Shown piece by piece: positions 13,545 through 42,425 of a stretch of DNA of 48,496 nt. Made by a program: the position numbers and the translations under genes. The DNA comes from Bacteroidales bacterium. GTDB taxonomy: Bacteria; Bacteroidota; Bacteroidia; Bacteroidales; UBA1556. Position 1 is the first letter of the stretch. Each line of letters opens with the position of its first letter. The notes under the pieces were generated by a model. The model did no database searches and was not told the origin of the DNA. It saw only the letters and a list, made by a program, of their open reading frames with translations. The DNA lies in assembly GCA_016937295.1 (NCBI GenBank), contig JAFGWF010000022.1:1-48496 (forward strand). Reading direction: 5' to 3'.

Positions 13545-15416
13545 TTAAATCTTTCCAAGGTATATTAATAAAACCGAAATATCAGCAGGAGAAATTCCGC
13601 TAATTCTACTTGCCTGACCAATGGTAGTAGGCTTCATTTTATTGAGTTTCTCACGACCCTCATAAGAAATCGCTGAAATACTCATGTAGTCGAAGTCTAA
13701 AGGCAAGGAGATATTTTCAAACTTTGTTATGCGCTCGGCGTGCTGCTGTTCTTTTTCGATATAAGATTGATACTTGACCGTAATCTCCACTTGCTCAATA
13801 ATATCATCGGTTGCCTCATTTTTTAAAATATAATTTTCCAATTTAGGAAGGTACTTGATCAATTGTTTCAAACTCACTTGAGGCCTTGTTAGTACCATTT
13901 CCAATTTTACTTTCTGTTTTAAAGGCGTTGAATCCACAGAATTTAAATAAGGCTCGATATCTGTTGGTTCAACGGATTGCTTTTGAATATGCTTTACAAT
14001 TCGATTAACCTTATCATACTTTTTTTCAACGTTTACCATCTGTAACTCAGCGGCCAAACCAATTTTATAACCCATAGGAGTCAAGCGAATATCAGCATTA
14101 TCCTGTCGGAGTAGGGTTCGAAATTCCGCTCTACTCGTAAACATACGATATGGCTCTTCTGTACCCTTGGTGATTAAATCATCAATTAAAACACCAATAT
14201 AAGCATCTGAACGCGATAGAATAAACGGATCCTTCTCGTGAATCTTTAAATGTGCATTTATACCGGCAACTATTCCTTGAGCTGCAGCTTCCTCGTATCC
14301 TGTAGTTCCATTAATTTGACCAGCAAAATATAAGTTTTCAAAAAGTTTGGTTTCTAATGTATAGCCCAATTGAGTCGGATGGAAAAAATCATATTCAATA
14401 GCATAACCCGGGCGAAAGATTTTCGCTTTCTCAAATCCAGGAATAAGGCGAAGCGCTTTAAACTGCACATCTTCCGGCAAAGAACTGGAAAAGCCATTAA
14501 CATAAATTTCATGAGTATTCCATCCCTCAGGCTCCACAAATAATTGATGTCGATCTTTGTCGCTAAAACGCTCAATTTTATCCTCGATTGATGGACAATA
14601 TCTTGGACCAATACCACTTATACGACCAATAAACAAAGGACTTTTATCAAATCCGGTTCTCAAAATATCATGAACATTTTCACTTGTATAAGTCAAGTAA
14701 CAACTACGCTGATGACTAAGTGGTTTGGTGTCTGTAAAGCTAAATTTTCCCGGATTCTCATCGCCTTTTTGCTCAATCATCTTGGAATAATCTAAGGAAC
14801 GACCATCGACCCTAACAGGAGTACCGGTTTTCATCCGATCTGAAGTAAAGCCAAGTTCTTTTAATTGTTCCGTAATTCCATAGCTCGCCTTCTCCCCTAT
14901 TCTTCCCCCGGAAAAGCTTTTTTCGCCTATAAAAATTTTTCCATTTAAAAATGTTCCATTAGTTAGTATAACCGCTTTGGATCTAATTTCCACCCCCAGA
15001 CCCGTAGAAACACCGCAAATTTGATTATTTTCTACAATTAAACCTGTTACCATATCTTCCCAAAAATCCAAATTAGGAATACTTTCGAGCTGATTTAGCC
15101 ACTCCGCACTAAACAATCGCCTATCGCTTTGCGCACGTGGACTCCACATTGCAGGTCCTTTAGAACGGTTCAGCATTCTAAACTGTATCATTGTTTTATC
15201 TGTGACGATTCCTGAAAGCCCACCTAAAGCATCTATTTCTCTTACAAGCTGACCTTTTGCAATTCCCCCCATTGCGGGATTACAGGACATTTGCGAAATT
15301 GATGTCCTGCTTAAAGTTACAAGAAGCACTTTTGAACCCATCTTTGCGGCAGCAGCGGCAGCTTCACTACCCGCATGACCACCTCCGACTACAATAATAT
15401 CGTATTTTTCAAACAT
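13545..15416 (-). CDS. mnmG: tRNA uridine-5-carboxymethylaminomethyl(34) synthesis enzyme MnmG
   Basis: IIVVGGGHAGSEAAAAAAKMG, MSCNPAMGGIAKGQLVREIDALGG, GTFLNGKIFIGE. Confidence 0.97.
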   Translation of the reverse strand: MFEKYDIIVVGGGHAGSEAAAAAAKMGSKVLLVTLSRTSISQMSCNPAMGGIAKGQLVREIDALGGLSGIVTDKTMIQFRMLNRSKGPAMWSPRAQSDRRLFSAEWLNQLESIPNLDFWEDMVTGLIVENNQICGVSTGLGVEIRSKAVILTNGTFLNGKIFIGEKSFSGGRIGEKASYGITEQLKELGFTSDRMKTGTPVRVDGRSLDYSKMIEQKGDENPGKFSFTDTKPLSHQRSCYLTYTSENVHDILRTGFDKSPLFIGRISGIGPRYCPSIEDKIERFSDKDRHQLFVEPEGWNTHEIYVNGFSSSLPEDVQFKALRLIPGFEKAKIFRPGYAIEYDFFHPTQLGYTLETKLFENLYFAGQINGTTGYEEAAAQGIVAGINAHLKIHEKDPFILSRSDAYIGVLIDDLITKGTEEPYRMFTSRAEFRTLLRQDNADIRLTPMGYKIGLAAELQMVNVEKKYDKVNRIVKHIQKQSVEPTDIEPYLNSVDSTPLKQKVKLEMVLTRPQVSLKQLIKYLPKLENYILKNEATDDIIEQVEITVKYQSYIEKEQQHAERITKFENISLPLDFDYMSISAISYEGREKLNKMKPTTIGQASRISGISPADISVLLIYLGKI

Positions 15417-16423: not shown

Positions 16424-19400
16424 CTAATCCAAATAACTGTTTACTAGTCTTTTATAAAAAGTCTTTAAATTTGGAGGAACAGTTTTTATCATATCGGTAT
16501 CTTCCTTATAAAACTCTTTATACTTCAAAATTAAATTTTTGTTACTATCTTCAGGATTTTTTCCTTCAACAGATTTCCGTTTTTCATCCATTTCTCTTTC
16601 CCGATCCGCTCTTTCACTTTCTAAAAGTCGCGTAATTATTTCTTTCTGGCGTTTCAAACTTTCAGCAGTAATCATTTTGTTTACCAATTCCGTTTCAATT
16701 TGTTCCATCTGACGAGCAGCTTCACCAAGCGAACCCGCTTCTTTCAGCTTGCCTTCTTTAGCCACCTGCTCACGATATTCTTGAAGCATCTTACGTAAAG
16801 CTTCCTGCTGGGCTGCCATTCGTGCCATCTCCTCACTCAGTTTTTCCCCACCTTTACCGGATTGACTTCCTTTATCTTTCGGTCCTTTTCCCTGTTGTTC
16901 CATGCCTTTTTTCATCTGCTCCATCTGCTTCTGTAGTGCTTGTTGCATCTCACGCATACTTTTGATTTTTGCTTGACCACCAGAACCAGGCTTAGGATTT
17001 TTACAACTACCTTTTCCCGACTTCGACTGCATCTGTTGTTGTTGCATTTGATTTAACGCCTCTGATAACATCAAGGCTAAATTATTTACCGAAGTCATTA
17101 TAAATTGCTGATTTGATGTTGATTGATTAATTGAATTACGAGAAGTAGGACCAATGGTATTAAGCTCTTTTAAGGCTAAAAAAGACGCCTCACTATGTTG
17201 TGCAATAGCTTTTAATTCGCGGCTAACGACTGGATCTATTGAGGGATTACGCAAGGCTATTTTTTTCAGTGAATCTTCTACCATCATAATATCGTCCATA
17301 ATACGCTTTTGCTCCTCGATAAAACTTGGAAACTTTGGATCACGATTGGAAGTAAACCTAACTTTATTAATCAAATTTTCCTGATTAAAACTGATTTCTA
17401 ATAAATTATGTAAAATGTTTTTTAGATTTTCTATATCCTCCCCCTCTGAATCTTGCTGCATACTTTCCTGAGCGTTTTCCAATTGTTCTGACAACTTTTG
17501 CATGGATTCCATTGCATTTTGCTGATTTTTCGCCCCTTCTTTCTGCTTACCTTGCTTTAAAGATTGCTCACTTTCATTCAGGTTTTGCTCAATTTCGGCC
17601 TCCTGCTTTTCTGTATTTGGTAACTTATTTGGCTCTTTTAAATCGTTGTTGGCTTTTCGTAACGAGTCCATATTGTTTTGCAACTTCTTGAACTCTTCAC
17701 CTATTGCCTCTTGTTTCTCTAACTCCTCATCTTTCGACATTTTTTCCGAATCCAAGAGCTTTTTTTGCTCCTTTTCCAACTCATTAAGTTTATCAATATT
17801 CTGCTGTAGTAAATTATCAAATTTAAGTTGTTTCATCATTTCAAGCTCTCTTTCGAGTTGTTCTTTTAAATATTCTGAATCAAACTTCATTTGTTCTAAC
17901 CCTTTCTCAATATCTTCCTTTTTGGTATTATTCTCAACCATTTTCTTCATTTCCTCAAGCATAAGTTTCATCTCAGGTGTTAAAACCTCCTCTAACAGCT
18001 TGGCTAATTCTTCTTGCTTTTTTTGAAGTTCCTCTGTTTGCTTTAGCTCATTCTTTACCTTTTCGCTATTCTGATTGAATTGCTCTGTGCTTTTTTCAAT
18101 ATTTTTTTGCAATTCATTAAATTTATCTAACAAATTACTGAGCTGATTTTTATCTTCCCATTCCAACTCTTTTTTACCTCGAATTTTCTGTTGCAATTGC
18201 TCCACTTGTTTAAATAGTTCAGCGGCTTTTTCAACTTGATTCTGCATTGCATCGGTCAACAGTTTCTCGCGATTTTGGGCATCTTGCAACAGCTCCTCAT
18301 TCGATTTTTGATATTTAGAAAAAATAGCTGAACGAGATATCTTAGGTCCATTAACAGCATCATTATCAGCAACTACAAAGGAGTAACTAATAACGGAATT
18401 ATCTTTTGCTTGAACATCGGAGAAATCAAAAAAATGATAAAAATCCTGACCAGAAGTGTAGTTCGATATTTCCATTGAAGAAAAAATAGTTGTGTCTTTA
18501 TCCGATAGAGTTTTAAAGTTTACTTCAAACTTTAAGGAAGAAAAACCATAATCATCCTTAATAAAACCCTTAAAGAACTTGCGATTCTCAAATACCGAAT
18601 CGGTAAACTCAGTAACCCTTACTTCCGGAAATTCATCCTTAATTATTCTTATGGGAAAAAGTATCGTATCTGAAATAGTTTCGAAACCATGCGGTATAAA
18701 TTGTAATTCCGTAGAAGATTTTATTCTATTCAGTTTTAACCTAAAAGGTGAAGGTAGAGTAAAAAAATCCAAACCGGACACAACATAAACCGTGTCTGTA
18801 TTCTTACTTTTTAACTTGAAAATCAAATTAGTTCCTTCAGGCACAGTTAACTCAGAAACGCGATTAAAGATTTCGTTAGTTTTTTGAATATAACTTGGGT
18901 ACTGCGTTTCGACATCAATGTTCAAAATTTTCGGAACCAACACCAAATTCAAGTAGTATTTTTCAGAATAAAAGCCGTCAGCAAAAAATTGGAATTCAAT
19001 ATCTTCTGTAATATTTTCTATTTGATGAAAAAAACGAACCGATGATTCCTTGTTCATCAAATACTCGCTACCGTTGACAAGTAAAAGAACGTCGGATGGA
19101 ACCGTTTTTCCAACAAGTTTCAAACTAACTTTAAAGTTTTCCTTTTCAATAACAGATAAGTCTGAGTTTAATAGCACAAATTTAAATGGAGCAGGGGGAA
19201 TGAATGTGCTGTCATAAAAGATTATGCGCTGGGCTGGAGCTGTTACGATTGTAGGAAAACCTAGGGCTAAACTAATAATTATGGCCAAGGGAGGCAATGC
19301 GTATTTAAGATACTTTTTGTTAAGCCTCAACCGGATAGAATTTTTAAAGCGAATAATACCAAACGTTCTAACTCGTTGTTCTACAGAAGCATTTAGCAGC

Positions 19401-19783
19401 GAAATTTGATCCGACGAAACGAAATTAGCCGACTCAAAAAGCTGAATCGTGTTGAAAATTTTATCTTTAATTTCATCGAACAATGAGCCAATAAGAAGTG
19501 CTGCATCCTTGTGGGACATTGCGGGAATGACGCGATAACGTTTGAAAACGGGCACAATAATCCAATAGATAGCTGCAAATGAACTAATTAAAACAAATGA
19601 AAGTAAAAAAACCAAGCGTATTTTTTCGGAAAAATAAAAAAAATGTTCTAATAAAACAAGGAGCAGGAAGGAGGTAAGGATTAAAGATAGAAAAAACAAA
19701 ACACCACGAATCAAACGATCAAAATAATACCGATTGATAAATTCGTCGAGGTTTGCCAACAAACGAGAGTATTGTTCATTCAT
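16424..19783 (-). CDS. DUF4175 family membrane/coiled-coil protein
   Basis: Three N-terminal TM segments, long Glu/Gln/Lys-rich coiled coil, C-terminal KDTDMIKTVPPNLKTFYKRLVNSYL; ybeY/mnmG-linked context. Confidence 0.8.
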   Translation of the reverse strand: MNEQYSRLLANLDEFINRYYFDRLIRGVLFFLSLILTSFLLLVLLEHFFYFSEKIRLVFLLSFVLISSFAAIYWIIVPVFKRYRVIPAMSHKDAALLIGSLFDEIKDKIFNTIQLFESANFVSSDQISLLNASVEQRVRTFGIIRFKNSIRLRLNKKYLKYALPPLAIIISLALGFPTIVTAPAQRIIFYDSTFIPPAPFKFVLLNSDLSVIEKENFKVSLKLVGKTVPSDVLLLVNGSEYLMNKESSVRFFHQIENITEDIEFQFFADGFYSEKYYLNLVLVPKILNIDVETQYPSYIQKTNEIFNRVSELTVPEGTNLIFKLKSKNTDTVYVVSGLDFFTLPSPFRLKLNRIKSSTELQFIPHGFETISDTILFPIRIIKDEFPEVRVTEFTDSVFENRKFFKGFIKDDYGFSSLKFEVNFKTLSDKDTTIFSSMEISNYTSGQDFYHFFDFSDVQAKDNSVISYSFVVADNDAVNGPKISRSAIFSKYQKSNEELLQDAQNREKLLTDAMQNQVEKAAELFKQVEQLQQKIRGKKELEWEDKNQLSNLLDKFNELQKNIEKSTEQFNQNSEKVKNELKQTEELQKKQEELAKLLEEVLTPEMKLMLEEMKKMVENNTKKEDIEKGLEQMKFDSEYLKEQLERELEMMKQLKFDNLLQQNIDKLNELEKEQKKLLDSEKMSKDEELEKQEAIGEEFKKLQNNMDSLRKANNDLKEPNKLPNTEKQEAEIEQNLNESEQSLKQGKQKEGAKNQQNAMESMQKLSEQLENAQESMQQDSEGEDIENLKNILHNLLEISFNQENLINKVRFTSNRDPKFPSFIEEQKRIMDDIMMVEDSLKKIALRNPSIDPVVSRELKAIAQHSEASFLALKELNTIGPTSRNSINQSTSNQQFIMTSVNNLALMLSEALNQMQQQQMQSKSGKGSCKNPKPGSGGQAKIKSMREMQQALQKQMEQMKKGMEQQGKGPKDKGSQSGKGGEKLSEEMARMAAQQEALRKMLQEYREQVAKEGKLKEAGSLGEAARQMEQIETELVNKMITAESLKRQKEIITRLLESERADREREMDEKRKSVEGKNPEDSNKNLILKYKEFYKEDTDMIKTVPPNLKTFYKRLVNSYLD

Positions 19784-32836: not shown

Positions 32837-34681
32837 CTATTTAGTAATAGGAATTTTAATAAAAGACGGAATAATATGGTTATCCAACTCTTTAGATGAC
32901 ATAAAAGTCAAAATTTCATTTCGCAAATTCTCAACAATAATTTCCGCTTTTTCCAATTCGATAAGCGATTTTGATTTAATGCTATCGACAGTTACTTTGA
33001 CTTGATTAAACATTTCGATATAAAAACTAATTCCTTTTAAGAGGTTGTCGGCGAATGAAACCATAGAAATATCAGGAACAGCAGCGGCTGAAATTCTATT
33101 TTTCAAAAAATCAACATAGAGTTGCATTTCCTTAATAAACACATGAGGGCGATTTTTTGTTGATAGAACATTAGTTTTACCATAAATGTGGCCAATCATA
33201 TCTTTCAAAGAAATTTGTTTATCAAAATAGGCCATATTTGGACCCGGACATACGGAAACGCCAGGACCTACATCTGAGAAATCTGCACCATTTACCTTTA
33301 AAGCAGAGGTTCCCAAGCCGGCACAAATACAATCCTTTTCAACAATGGCATTGTACTGTTTTTGATATTCTTGCTTGGACAAGTCTTGCTTATCTAATTC
33401 TTTAATTTTTAAGTTTTGATATGCTCTTGAAGCTGTACAAATTCCGCGTTTAGTGAGTTCGGTATTCAATTTAACAAACTTACGAGGACAATCACTTCCG
33501 GGACGTCCTTCGGCTATATACGCTTGTTTTTCAGCATCTTTAGTATTTCCACGCAACGTATTGAAAGGCACACCAAGTGGAGAAATATTACTCAAATACA
33601 AGTCATTTTCTTCGGCTTTAATCAAACGATTTCTGGTTTCTTGATCGACAGCCGTAACACCTTCTACTAACAGGAATGGCGTTCCCCAACCAACGGAATC
33701 GAGTTGATAGTATTCCTTCAAAAACTCATGCTCTTCGTTAGTACCCACACCGCCTTGGTACGTTAAAACCAATTTAGGTTCAAAGTTTTCCAAATTGTAG
33801 TTCTTTGATTCAAGAGATTTTTTTAAAAGTTCAAAGACTTGATGGTATAAATCAGCGCGTTTTTGTTTAAATTCATTTAAGATTGGCCCAATCAGCAAAC
33901 CATCGGAAGCAAACGCATGACCACCACAATTTAGCCCTGATTCGATACGATACTCCGAAACCCACAAACCTCTTTTGGCCAAATATTTACCCTGAATTAA
34001 TGCCGATTTAAAATCACTAACTTTCAAAACAATTTTCTTTTTTAGGATTCCATTTTTATCGGGGTAGAAATCGGGAAAAGACTCCATATAAGCATATAAG
34101 CGAGGGTTCATTCCGGCAGAAAGAATTACAGAAGAATTTAAGTTACTGTTGGCAAATCCACGCAACGCCGCATGAGCATCGTTAAATTCTTGTGGCAATT
34201 CTTTACCGTTTTTATAATTAATCTTATCAACCTTAGTCATAATGTTGACATCAATACTTCCTTTAACCAACTGATTTTTAAATGTTTCAATAAGATGACT
34301 AATATTTGAATTGCGATTTTGATACGCTAAAAACTCTTTTTTCAGGGGTGTTTGATCCGACAAATAATCGAAATAATCTAAGAAATCAGAATACTTTCCT
34401 TTCACGGAACTTTTCATTTCGTCAATTCGCTTATCGACTAAACTATTAAGCAAATTGAGATAGGACGTAATTCGTTTAGCTCTATAATCCTCCATTTTCT
34501 CTGAAATTTCAAAATAAGGAATTTTAAATTTTTGAGAGAAAACTTTACGAAGTTTTTCCAATAAAACATCATCAACCAATGAAATTACAGAGTCGATACC
34601 TAAATGAGAAACTTTGAGAGGTGTATCTATTGTGAAACCAATACCCATTACAGGTATGTGGAAGGAATGGGCATTTGACAT
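32837..34681 (-). CDS. conserved uncharacterised 614-aa protein with TIM-barrel-like N-terminus and Cys cluster
   Basis: IPVMGIGFTIDTPLKVSHLGIDSVISLVDD; NCGGHAFASDGLLIGPIL; C-terminal DCPRK..GICTASR..DCICAGLG..VSVCPGPNM. Confidence 0.7.
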   Translation of the reverse strand: MSNAHSFHIPVMGIGFTIDTPLKVSHLGIDSVISLVDDVLLEKLRKVFSQKFKIPYFEISEKMEDYRAKRITSYLNLLNSLVDKRIDEMKSSVKGKYSDFLDYFDYLSDQTPLKKEFLAYQNRNSNISHLIETFKNQLVKGSIDVNIMTKVDKINYKNGKELPQEFNDAHAALRGFANSNLNSSVILSAGMNPRLYAYMESFPDFYPDKNGILKKKIVLKVSDFKSALIQGKYLAKRGLWVSEYRIESGLNCGGHAFASDGLLIGPILNEFKQKRADLYHQVFELLKKSLESKNYNLENFEPKLVLTYQGGVGTNEEHEFLKEYYQLDSVGWGTPFLLVEGVTAVDQETRNRLIKAEENDLYLSNISPLGVPFNTLRGNTKDAEKQAYIAEGRPGSDCPRKFVKLNTELTKRGICTASRAYQNLKIKELDKQDLSKQEYQKQYNAIVEKDCICAGLGTSALKVNGADFSDVGPGVSVCPGPNMAYFDKQISLKDMIGHIYGKTNVLSTKNRPHVFIKEMQLYVDFLKNRISAAAVPDISMVSFADNLLKGISFYIEMFNQVKVTVDSIKSKSLIELEKAEIIVENLRNEILTFMSSKELDNHIIPSFIKIPITK

Positions 34682-36337: not shown

Positions 36338-37261
36338 TTAAGATATATCTAACATTCGTTGAATTGGTTTTATTGCCTTTTGCATTACATCATCAGGCAA
36401 AATAATTTCATTAGTTTCATTTTCAAGAACATACAGAATTTTTTCTAAGGTAATTTTTTTCATATAAGGGCAATCATTGCAATTACAAATTTCATCAGAA
36501 GGAACGATAATAAATTCTTTTTCAGGATTTTGCTTATACATCTGATGCAAAATTCCGGATTCCGTTGCAACAATATATTTCGTTGCAGAATCGCGATTCG
36601 TAAAATCCAAAAGAGCCGAAGTAGAACCTACAAAATCAGCTAATTCCAAAACAGCACCCTGACATTCAGGATGAGCAATCAATTTTGCATCCGGATTTTC
36701 AATTTTGAGCTGAACGATTTTTTCTGCTTCCAAGATGTCGTGTACTTCACAAGAGCCATCCCATAAAACCATATTTCGTCCGGTTAGTTTGTTGATATAT
36801 CCTCCAAGATTTCGGTCGGGAGCAAAAATGATTTTTTCATCTTTGGGCAGCGAATTCACAATCTTAACCGCATTGCTCGAGGTACAGACGATGTCGGTCA
36901 TCGTTTTCAAATCGGCAGTGCAATTGATATAACTAATGACCGTATGATTCGGGTAACGTTCTTTGAAAGTTTTAAAATTCTCTGCAGGGCAACTATCGGC
37001 CAAACTGCATCCGGCATCCAAATCAGGAAGCAACACTTTAGCCTTTGGGTTAATAATTTTTGCCGTTTCGGCCATAAAATGTACACCGGCGAAAACAATA
37101 ATGTCGCTGTTGATAACTTGAGCTTTTTGAGCCAGCGCCAAACTATCGCCCACAAAATCTGCTATATCTTGAATATCAGCCGTTTGATAGTAATGTGCTA
37201 AAATTATGGCGTTTTTTTCGCTTTTTAACTGTTCGATTTTTGAAATAATTTCTGAAGTCAT
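36338..37261 (-). CDS. nadA: quinolinate synthase NadA
   Basis: AIILAHYYQTADIQDIADFVGDSLALAQKA, YINCTADLKTMTDIVCTSSNA, HPECQGAVL, CNCNDCPYM. Confidence 0.95.
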   Translation of the reverse strand: MTSEIISKIEQLKSEKNAIILAHYYQTADIQDIADFVGDSLALAQKAQVINSDIIVFAGVHFMAETAKIINPKAKVLLPDLDAGCSLADSCPAENFKTFKERYPNHTVISYINCTADLKTMTDIVCTSSNAVKIVNSLPKDEKIIFAPDRNLGGYINKLTGRNMVLWDGSCEVHDILEAEKIVQLKIENPDAKLIAHPECQGAVLELADFVGSTSALLDFTNRDSATKYIVATESGILHQMYKQNPEKEFIIVPSDEICNCNDCPYMKKITLEKILYVLENETNEIILPDDVMQKAIKPIQRMLDIS

Positions 37262-37282
37262 AGTTATAAATTTGAACTGCAA

Positions 37283-37838
37283 AAATACAGATTAAAAAAT
37301 TTATAGATTAGCAATTGAATGCGAAGCATATTAAAAATAATTAATTTTTTAAAAGAAAGTATTAGTAGTAGTAGTGATGTTAATATGTGTATAAGTTTCT
37401 TGGTAAGGGCTGTTTTTAATGTTTTCAGGAAAATATCAGCATTTTTATTCACTATCGAATCATATCATTTTTAATATTTTAATGAATTATTAACATGCGG
37501 TTAATATTAATATCTGTTGAAAAATTGTCGATATCAACAAGGTCAAAAAATGTTGATTAACTGTCAGAAAATTCCAAAAAGTTTTTGATAAAAAAAGAGA
37601 TAATGTGATGAAAAAAAACAGTTGAAAGGTTATTAGTAATTATGAACGTTCGAAACACGATATTAACCATTCTTATGTTAATAAATACGACACTATTAGT
37701 TTACAATGACTTAAGATAAAAATTATTATGTTAATTAATTATTAACATCTTCAATTAAAGTAAATTAGAAAAATCGGGTAAGTTTTTGTTAATTTGCAGT
37801 TATTAACAATGATGTGTTCAACCATAAATTTTACAGAT
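37283..37838. other. candidate replication origin / DnaA-box-like repeat cluster
   Basis: Four exact TTATTAACA 9-mers (37487-37495 +, 37676-37684 -, 37739-37747 +, 37800-37808 +) plus near copies, AT-rich tracts, (TAG)4; sits at the gene-strand switch. Confidence 0.4.
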
Positions 37839-38273
37839 ATGAATGTTGCAATTGCCTGTGATCATGCAGCTTATGATTTAAAAGAGTTTTTAAAATCGGA
37901 GTTATCAACAAGAGGTTATTCACTTAAAGACTTTGGAGCCTATAGCTCAGAATCGGTAGATTATCCCGATAATATTCATCCTTTGTCAGAAGCTATTGAA
38001 AGAGGAGAATTTTTGCTTGGTATAATTGCATGTGGCAGTGGAAATGGCGCAGCAATAACAGCAAACAAACATCAAGGTGTGAGAGCTTGCATGGCCTGGA
38101 ATACGGAATTGGCTGCATTGGGCCGGCAGCATAACGATGCAAATGTGTTGAGTTTATCGGCTCGTTTTATTGCAAAAGAATATGCTTTAGAGATTGCATT
38201 GGCTTTTTTGACAGCTCAGTTTGAAGGTGGACGTCATGCAAATAGAGTAAACAAAATTCCAGTGAACAAATAG
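37839..38273 (+). CDS. rpiB: RpiB/LacA/LacB family sugar-phosphate isomerase
   Basis: MNVAIACDHAAYDLKEFL..., GIIACGSGNGAAITANKHQGVRACMAWN; internal Met start preferred over 37794. Confidence 0.92.
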   Translation: MNVAIACDHAAYDLKEFLKSELSTRGYSLKDFGAYSSESVDYPDNIHPLSEAIERGEFLLGIIACGSGNGAAITANKHQGVRACMAWNTELAALGRQHNDANVLSLSARFIAKEYALEIALAFLTAQFEGGRHANRVNKIPVNK

Positions 38274-39440: not shown

Positions 39441-40904
39441 ATGATTAAAGAGAATAATTTGGATCGATATTCAGTGAAAAAATTTTCGTCGGTAATTTGG
39501 GTTTCGATTATTTTATTTCTTTTTCCTCTATTTCTTTTACCTTTTTTCAATTATCCATCAACGGATGATTTCTATATTCCTGATTTGATAAGGTCTATGG
39601 GCTTTTGGGAAGTGCAGAATCATGTTTATCAGAATTGGGGGGCTCGTTATTCCTTTAATTTTATTTCAGCTTTTGGAAATTGGAATCATTTTGTTTTAAA
39701 CCATTATTATTTCCATTCAATGGCTTTAATAATTGGACAACTAATTGCTTCTGTTTTTTTTATTCATAATTTCCTGAAGTATGGTTTAAGCCTAACTATA
39801 TCCAAATCGGAAAAGTGGTTTTTAGGCTTAGTTTTTTATTTGGTTCAGTTGGTTAGTTTGCCTGAGATGAGCACATGGTATTTTTGGTTTAGCAGCGCCA
39901 TAACTTATTCATTACCAACAATATTATTATTTTTTCAGTTAGGATTGCTCTTTCGTTATTATCAAAAAAGGGATCTTTGGTCTATTTTTGTAATTCTCAT
40001 TTTAACCGTGATTTTGGTCGGATCGAATGAAGTTTTTGTGGTGATTCAGGGAGTAACCTTATTTGTTTTTGCAATGCTAACATATCGAAACAAGGTCATT
40101 TTTCGGGTTGTACTTCTCATGGTTTTGGTTTTAAGTTTGTCTGCCGGTTTTTATCTTTTATCTTCCGGTAATCAATATCGTTTCGGAATTATCCCTTCAA
40201 AAAGTCCGGTTTTCTATGTTCTCTCTACCCTTGTTCAGTTTCCAATTATTTTTTGGTCTATTTTTAAAAATCCTCTTTTTTGGTTTTTTGGATTCACGGT
40301 TTTTATGGTTTTAAAGCCTTACCAAGAGCTTATTTTAAGTCGTTTTGGAAATAGTTTAAGGTATATCCTTTTCGTTTTTTTTGGATTACTTATTCTTACT
40401 ATTGTAATTCCCGTAATAGGTCTGAAAGGCAGCATGTTACCTTTAAGATTAGTCAATGTTTTAGTGGTATTTTCTGTGATGTCTTGCATGGCGGTTTTTG
40501 CTTTATTGGCGCTGAAACGTTTTCAAAAACGAGAAACATTGCTATTAAATTTTTCAAGTAAATACTTTTTAATTGTATTTGTGGTAGTATTGTTTGCAAA
40601 TCATTTTACAGCAGATAGTTATCAAAGTTTGATAAGTGCTTTTTATCGAAGCAAAATACATTCGAAACAATTGGAAGCCATGAAAAGGGCAGGGGAGGAG
40701 AAAGGAGTTTTGAGGATTAAAAATTTTAACTGCGAGTTGGATGAATTAACCGAAAATCAGAATGTTACCTTGGCAAAGATTGTTAAGGAGAATCCCCCAT
40801 TTTTTATGAGTTTTGATTTTTTTTCTGACGAAAACTCATTGGAATTTTTAATAAAGCACTACGGATTGGAAAAGGTAATTATAGAAGACTGTAAGAATGA
40901 TTAG
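39441..40904 (+). CDS. multi-TM membrane protein, DUF6056/GT-C glycosyltransferase-like
   Basis: Many TM helices; FNYPSTDDFYIPDLIR...NWGARYSFNFISAF after the first TM. Confidence 0.65.
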   Translation: MIKENNLDRYSVKKFSSVIWVSIILFLFPLFLLPFFNYPSTDDFYIPDLIRSMGFWEVQNHVYQNWGARYSFNFISAFGNWNHFVLNHYYFHSMALIIGQLIASVFFIHNFLKYGLSLTISKSEKWFLGLVFYLVQLVSLPEMSTWYFWFSSAITYSLPTILLFFQLGLLFRYYQKRDLWSIFVILILTVILVGSNEVFVVIQGVTLFVFAMLTYRNKVIFRVVLLMVLVLSLSAGFYLLSSGNQYRFGIIPSKSPVFYVLSTLVQFPIIFWSIFKNPLFWFFGFTVFMVLKPYQELILSRFGNSLRYILFVFFGLLILTIVIPVIGLKGSMLPLRLVNVLVVFSVMSCMAVFALLALKRFQKRETLLLNFSSKYFLIVFVVVLFANHFTADSYQSLISAFYRSKIHSKQLEAMKRAGEEKGVLRIKNFNCELDELTENQNVTLAKIVKENPPFFMSFDFFSDENSLEFLIKHYGLEKVIIEDCKND

Positions 40905-40946: not shown

Positions 40947-42425
40947 ATGTCATGGTTTAAAAGAAATATAAAAGTTGATAACCTTATTACTTTGGGGATG
41001 ATTTTATTATTATCTCCTTTTTTGGCCTTGATTTTTTATACGCATCCTTTTGCTGATGATGTTCTTTTTGCTAACAGTGTAAGTAATTTTGGAGTGATTG
41101 GCGGAATTATCGATTTTTATTTCAATTGGTCGGGTCGATATGTGGTTATGGGTTTGGGTTTATTAAATAAGTGGATTTCCCCTTTTCCGCCATATTATCA
41201 TGTTTCATTGCTTCTTTATTTATGTTTGTTTTCTTTTTCTATTTATTTGTTTTACAAAGTATTATATGGTTTTTTGAATGTTCGGATTCCATTATTATTT
41301 TCAACTTTACTAACCTTGTTTCTTATTTTTCAAACAAGCCCCGACTTATACAGTTTGATTTATTGGCATCCGGGAGTGAGCGCATATACGTTCACAATTT
41401 CCATTTTCTTACTTTTTGTAGTCAATTTATTTTCCTTCCTGACAGGTTTAATTAAAAAGGCTACCTTCTTAGTTTTCAGTTTGTTATTATCCTTTATTCT
41501 CGGAGGAAGTATCGAACTTATCCTTCCCTTCATTTTGTTAATATTTTTTATTATAGTTTTGAGAATAAAAAATATAGAAAAAAATAAGCGATTCTCCATT
41601 CTTTTAGTTTTGGTTTTTTATCTGATTTTTCTCACTGTATTCTTGATTAGCCCCGGCAATTATAATCGACTTGAGGTTTCAGAAATGTTGTTGGTTGAGA
41701 ATTTTTTTCAAAAAAGCATTCTAAACTTTGCCATGATAAATGTGAATTATTTACAGAATCCGGTTTATTTGATTTCATTATTAGTTATAGGTATTTATTT
41801 GATAAATAATAAATTACAAATACCAAAATTGAGTTGGATAAAAATTAAACCCTTATGGCTTTTTGTACTAATTCAAGTTTTTTTGTTTTTCTATATTTTG
41901 GCCCTGACAAAGATTATGGGAATTTTACCTGGTAGGGTAGCCAATTTCGTTGGAATATTTTATATTTTTTCACACCTGTTTTTGTTGTTATACTTTGTAA
42001 CTTATTATCAATCCAAAATATTTCAATTTCAACTATCCCTGAAACCTATCAACAAGATTTTGGTAACTTTAATCCTGTTGTTTACATTTCTTGGCGTTTA
42101 TCCTACTTCTGTTTACAAATTGGTTCAAGCCGAAAGAATTGATAAGTCGAGATATCTGGTGTTTAGCTCCAATTTTCTTCACGCCACTTATACGTTATTT
42201 TTCGAAGCCGGCTATTTCAAAAGGCATTATCAAACCCAAGATAAAATATTAGAAAATGCTCAATTGAAAAAATCAAAAAGTGCGATTATAGCACCATATC
42301 CTGATAATGTAAAATTATTGTTTAGGCTCAAAAAGCTTGCTCCAGAAAATACTGAAATTATCACAAAAGATCCTTTAGTGGAGTTTTATCAATTGGATAC
42401 TTTGATTGTGAAAGGAATGAACTAA
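40947..42425 (+). CDS. multi-TM membrane protein, DUF6056/GT-C glycosyltransferase-like (paralogue)
   Basis: Many TM helices; YTHPFADDVLFANSV...NWSGRYVVMGLGLL parallels the preceding gene. Confidence 0.65.
   Translation: MSWFKRNIKVDNLITLGMILLLSPFLALIFYTHPFADDVLFANSVSNFGVIGGIIDFYFNWSGRYVVMGLGLLNKWISPFPPYYHVSLLLYLCLFSFSIYLFYKVLYGFLNVRIPLLFSTLLTLFLIFQTSPDLYSLIYWHPGVSAYTFTISIFLLFVVNLFSFLTGLIKKATFLVFSLLLSFILGGSIELILPFILLIFFIIVLRIKNIEKNKRFSILLVLVFYLIFLTVFLISPGNYNRLEVSEMLLVENFFQKSILNFAMINVNYLQNPVYLISLLVIGIYLINNKLQIPKLSWIKIKPLWLFVLIQVFLFFYILALTKIMGILPGRVANFVGIFYIFSHLFLLLYFVTYYQSKIFQFQLSLKPINKILVTLILLFTFLGVYPTSVYKLVQAERIDKSRYLVFSSNFLHATYTLFFEAGYFKRHYQTQDKILENAQLKKSKSAIIAPYPDNVKLLFRLKKLAPENTEIITKDPLVEFYQLDTLIVKGMN

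Follow-up and report, generated by a model that had tools for sequence, protein, structure and literature searches.

Does the divergent gap between nadA and rpiB, in a stretch of 48,496 nucleotides from a Bacteroidales genome (hereafter the window), hold the origin of chromosome replication? The window is contig 290 in a 333-contig draft assembly that is about 92% complete. The initial annotation had proposed that an origin lies here, and that a 9-mer repeated in the gap is a lineage-specific variant of the DnaA box. We conclude that the gap very probably is the chromosomal replication origin (oriC) and that related bacteria appear to hold theirs at the same locus, with the same unusual predicted DnaA-binding sequence. 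The origin is placed here because several observations agree: (i) conserved synteny; (ii) unbiased 9-mer enrichment; (iii) a skew minimum in complete relatives; (iv) the direction of rRNA genes. It would belong to a known kind, the DnaA-dependent oriC; what is new is a well-supported further case with a predicted lineage-specific box. Table 1 lists its parts.

Table 1. Candidate origin, flanking genes and putative DnaA-binding elements (positions in the window).
Feature	Position	Strand	Basis
Candidate oriC, nadA/rpiB divergent intergenic gap, 577 bp, 22.7% G+C	37262..37838	.	composition, local GC-skew switch, synteny
nadA, quinolinate synthase, left flank of origin	36338..37261	-	NCBIfam equivalog, E 2e-134
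rpiB, ribose-5-phosphate isomerase B, right flank of origin	37839..38273	+	NCBIfam, E 3.8e-48
DnaA-trio run TAGTAGTAGTAG, 3'-GAT-5' read towards unwinding region	37363..37374	+	sole occurrence in window
Trio-proximal candidate DnaA box ATATTAACA, after 3-bp TGA spacer	37378..37386	-	
Trio-distal candidate DnaA box TTATACACA, 1 mismatch to TTATCCACA, co-oriented, 11 bp from trios	37386..37394	-	
Putative DnaA-box variant TTATTAACA, conserved in L004	37487..37495	+	exact match
Weak box ATATCAACA	37531..37539	+	
Weak box TAATCAACA	37551..37559	-	
Putative DnaA-box variant TTATTAACA, conserved in L004	37676..37684	-	exact match
Weak box TAATTAACA	37729..37737	-	
Putative DnaA-box variant TTATTAACA	37739..37747	+	exact match
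Putative DnaA-box variant TTATTAACA, just downstream of rpiB TTTGC promoter-like element	37800..37808	+	kept in 7/7 same-genus gaps examined
TTATCAACA within rpiB, possible outlying box	37902..37910	+	

Four exact copies of TTATTAACA lie inside 322 bp of the gap; these, the near copies and the TTATCAACA within rpiB are all present as first listed. The gap is non-coding and AT-rich, and the four variant boxes with their near copies give it the clustered candidate DnaA boxes expected of an oriC. The canonical high-affinity box is absent, as a scan of the window's gap found no exact TTATCCACA, and we count this against an origin. Canonical TTATCCACA is common at oriC and not strictly defining, species-specific boxes being accepted. 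A genome-wide density check, suggested by the initial annotation, gave 80 copies of TTATTAACA in the 3,166,573 bp of the draft genome, and outside the nadA/rpiB gap copies never lie nearer each other than about 0.88 kb; equal density elsewhere, which the initial annotation had named as refuting an origin, is thereby answered. Might the cluster be a chance product of AT-rich sequence, combined with local gene orientation? The 77% A+T content of the gap would favour this, but at least four copies were found in none of 20,000 composition-preserving dinucleotide shuffles of the 577-bp gap (shuffle mean 0.08).

Strand composition bears on the second half of that explanation. Over the window, cumulative GC skew is lowest at 36-38 kb. 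At third codon positions the skew of plus-strand genes moves from -0.135 left of the gap to +0.152 right of it, and minus-strand genes left of the gap give -0.119. Since plus genes flip sign and the left-hand minus genes are also negative, gene direction alone does not account for the switch, as the initial annotation had argued; persistence in both gene orientations speaks against chance as well. The strand bias among genes also stood, with slightly different counts: 20 of 22 minus and 9 plus genes had been claimed, and the ORF list gives 19 of 20 minus over 7.9-37.3 kb and 8 plus genes beyond 37.8 kb. Because the assembly is a 333-contig draft, its own skew is read locally, in the window, and the global position is read from relatives.

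About 15 families of the order have the divergent nadA/rpiB pair, as do the same-genus genomes where an rpiB was located; the first eleven gaps examined measure 394-751 bp, with 13-32% G+C. In a survey of 20-kb stretches the skew passed from negative to positive across the gap in 12/12 loci having the pair, against 1/8 rpiB loci without a nadA neighbour; the one exception (G158) carries three TTATCAACA copies upstream of its rpiB. An unbiased count over 37 distinct gaps identified TTATTAACA as the most enriched 9-mer, with 59 observed and 3.25 expected (about 18-fold). Enrichment extended to TTATCAACA (17, with 0.75 expected) and to canonical-class TTATNCACA (16, with 2.0 expected). A reversed control pattern showed no enrichment (13 against 9.7) and a shifted control at most a slight one (15 against 9.8). 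Such conservation already refutes a chance origin of the box cluster, to which we assign next to no probability. Exact TTATCCACA occurs at the matching offset in two same-genus gaps (L005, L009) and is also found in the L162 gap. With TTATTAACA, TTATCAACA and TTATNCACA all enriched and exact TTATCCACA at the same offset in relatives, the motif family is best read as DnaA boxes.

Changes in the predicted recognition domain of the initiator would accompany the change of box. In domain IV of the organism's own DnaA, KDHATVLHAC stands in place of the RDHTTVLHAC of E. coli, and SLATIG in place of its SLPEIG. In Helicobacter pylori and other epsilonproteobacterial origins box position 6 is C, unlike the A of the window's box. 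Those origins resemble the window's in having a box peculiar to their lineage, with T at position 5, accompanied by changes in domain IV of DnaA (PMC5043019). The same source places the base-specific contacts of E. coli DnaA at residues 399, 423, 432-435 and 438-439 (PMC5043019), and the changes at 423, 432 and 435 would fit an altered preference at box position 6. Support for the suggestion that TTATTAACA is a lineage-specific DnaA-box variant comes from its enrichment over the 37 gaps, from the TTATCCACA copies at corresponding sites in L005 and L009, and from DnaA changes at contact-homologous residues.

Box clusters with a skew flip also occur at rpiB loci lacking an adjacent nadA (L110, L072, L052, L053, L077, L074, L050, L044), Flavobacteriales included. 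Among those with at least two boxes and a flip are the loci of a Crocinitomicaceae bacterium and of Weeksella sp. FF8 (pgk-gap-rpiB-rnr). In Bacteroidota the origin may long have had rpiB beside it, with nadA as the usual partner of rpiB in many Bacteroidales families. These loci bear on a different account of the motif, in which TTATTAACA is the operator of a transcription factor controlling nadA and rpiB and the skew switch is incidental. The gap is indeed a divergent promoter region, and the genus as a whole keeps a box at the promoter of rpiB. An operator would not explain why the skew flips too where box clusters stand at rpiB without nadA (L110 and L072 among them), why the motif family takes in canonical TTATCCACA and TTATTCACA, or why complete chromosomes have their skew minimum at nadA/rpiB, and we regard it as very improbable. 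A DnaA box at this promoter may regulate rpiB as well as serve the origin. In all seven same-genus gaps examined a TTATTAACA copy directly follows the TTTGC promoter-like element (37789-37808 in the window), and DnaA bound at 37800 may also damp rpiB expression.

A candidate unwinding element lies on the nadA side of the gap. The plus strand at 37363-37394 reads TAGTAGTAGTAG-TGA-TGTTAATAT-GTGTATAA, that is, four trios, a 3-bp spacer and two boxes in the same orientation. With the trio motif defined as in PMC8287927 and PMC6669920, the four TAG trios lie 3 bp from ATATTAACA and 11 bp from TTATACACA, where at least three trios no more than 16 bp from a box are looked for. Both boxes are on the minus strand and point at the trios on the plus-strand side; they share one overlapping base, and in the relative L004 the trio-distal position reads TTATTCACA. 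In several families a similar block (TA-rich trios, a short GC-containing spacer and TGTTAATAN) stands 83-116 bp from nadA, and a trio-plus-box element at or above the score threshold is present in 10 of the 37 gaps against 0.7 expected. The initial annotation had overlooked the trios and the paired boxes, TTATACACA at 37386 (-) included.

In B. subtilis the basal unwinding system comprises a co-oriented box pair and 3'-GAT-5' DnaA-trios, and the published distance from the better box to the trios peaks at 10-13 bp (PMC8287927, PMC6669920, PMC10721633). The window's candidate element resembles it in the two co-oriented boxes, the short spacer, the trios and the further boxes at a distance, and its better box, at 11 bp, falls inside that peak. 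It differs in that its boxes are TTATTAACA-like and not TTATCCACA, that they overlap by one base, and that the locus is not beside dnaA.

Near-complete relatives place the gap on the chromosome as a whole. In G165, a complete chromosome on a single contig of 4,812,386 bp from which forty 20-kb stretches were sampled, mean skew is -0.051 (se 0.009) in the left half and +0.047 (se 0.007) in the right, being negative in 19/20 left-half stretches and positive in nearly all right-half ones. Its cumulative minimum is at nadA/rpiB (2.483 Mb), and the skew switches back near position 0. Genes of either orientation, taken separately, show the difference: plus genes give -0.149 left versus -0.005 right, minus genes -0.039 versus +0.152. 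The minimum also lies at nadA/rpiB in G384 (4.11 Mb, sampled over 0-2.8 Mb) and G300 (5.93 Mb); G136 is noisier and agrees more weakly.

A skew extreme could also mark a terminus if the sign were inverted, with the origin near dnaA. In bacteria dnaA is often near oriC, an adjacency that is common and not defining. The window's genome carries its dnaA on a separate contig (C231), in agreement with the initial annotation that the gene lies outside the window, and no DnaA boxes were seen in the 345 bp upstream of it. In 3/3 relatives measured, from three families, dnaA is near the pole opposite the gap, at 76 kb (G165), 301 kb (G300) and 139 kb (G136). We count against an origin at the gap both that dnaA is not adjacent and that it sits near the opposite pole in relatives, as a terminus would have it. 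As a test of polarity that does not depend on the sign of the skew, the direction of rRNA genes was used. G165, G300, G384 and G136 have 12 such genes between them, every one directed away from the gap, so the gap is an origin and not a terminus; were it a terminus, 12/12 would run head-on to replication. On this ground the terminus reading is rejected, and its probability is exceedingly small. The window's genes diverge from the gap, DnaA-box-like motifs and the trio element cluster in it, and according to published work the oriC of Bacteroidetes commonly sits well away from dnaA (PMC4755523). With nadA/rpiB as the origin, the closeness of dnaA to the terminus is an extra regularity, seen in three genomes from three families.

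The clustered boxes, the anatomy of the unwinding element, the synteny, and the skew minimum and rRNA direction of relatives all emerge from sequence comparison, and we propose a mechanism that would fit them. DnaA, encoded elsewhere, would bind the clustered TTAT(T/C)AACA-type boxes, use the co-oriented pair at 37378-37394 to load onto the DnaA-trios at 37363-37374 and melt the AT-rich DNA towards nadA. Helicases would then be loaded, and on firing forks would leave both ways.

A further proposition concerns much of the order. DnaA preference may have moved to TTAT(T/C)AACA through domain IV changes (Pro423 to Ala, Arg432 to Lys and Thr435 to Ala, E. coli numbering), with dnaA kept near the terminus, lowering initiator gene dosage after firing. 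Initiation control would then be differently wired lineage-wide, which we consider unlikely.

A close published counterpart is the predicted oriC of Prevotella intermedia OMA14, from the same phylum, which has a GC-skew transition and multiple DnaA boxes and is far from dnaA (PMC4755523). Unlike the present locus it was found by Ori-Finder with E. coli-type boxes, and nadA and rpiB are not named as its neighbours in the passages covered (PMC4755523). Within the partial literature covered, nothing was found linking oriC to rpiB or to quinolinate synthase, matches for nadA with oriC looked unrelated, and a full-text search for the TTATTAACA 9-mer gave only unrelated papers among the matches listed.

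This offers a sequence rule for finding origins in draft Bacteroidales genomes: look between divergent nadA and rpiB for TTAT(T/C)AACA boxes accompanied by a trio element. The window's origin, without exact TTATCCACA, could escape standard E. coli-box searches. With the origin known, metagenome coverage can be turned into growth rates for the order's uncultured members, and the box specificity of Bacteroidota DnaA becomes directly testable.

No parS-like site within 2 mismatches of TGTTYCACGTGRAACA was found in the draft genome (about 92% complete), and this too counts against an origin; the window has one 3-mismatch site at 15.4 kb, a number expected by chance. Several large predicted proteins without a Pfam match are encoded near or beside the origin (39441-40904, 40947-42425, 32837-34681 and 16424-19783). 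At 13545-15416 (-), 22 kb from the candidate origin, is mnmG/gidA, a gene classically found beside oriC in other bacteria.
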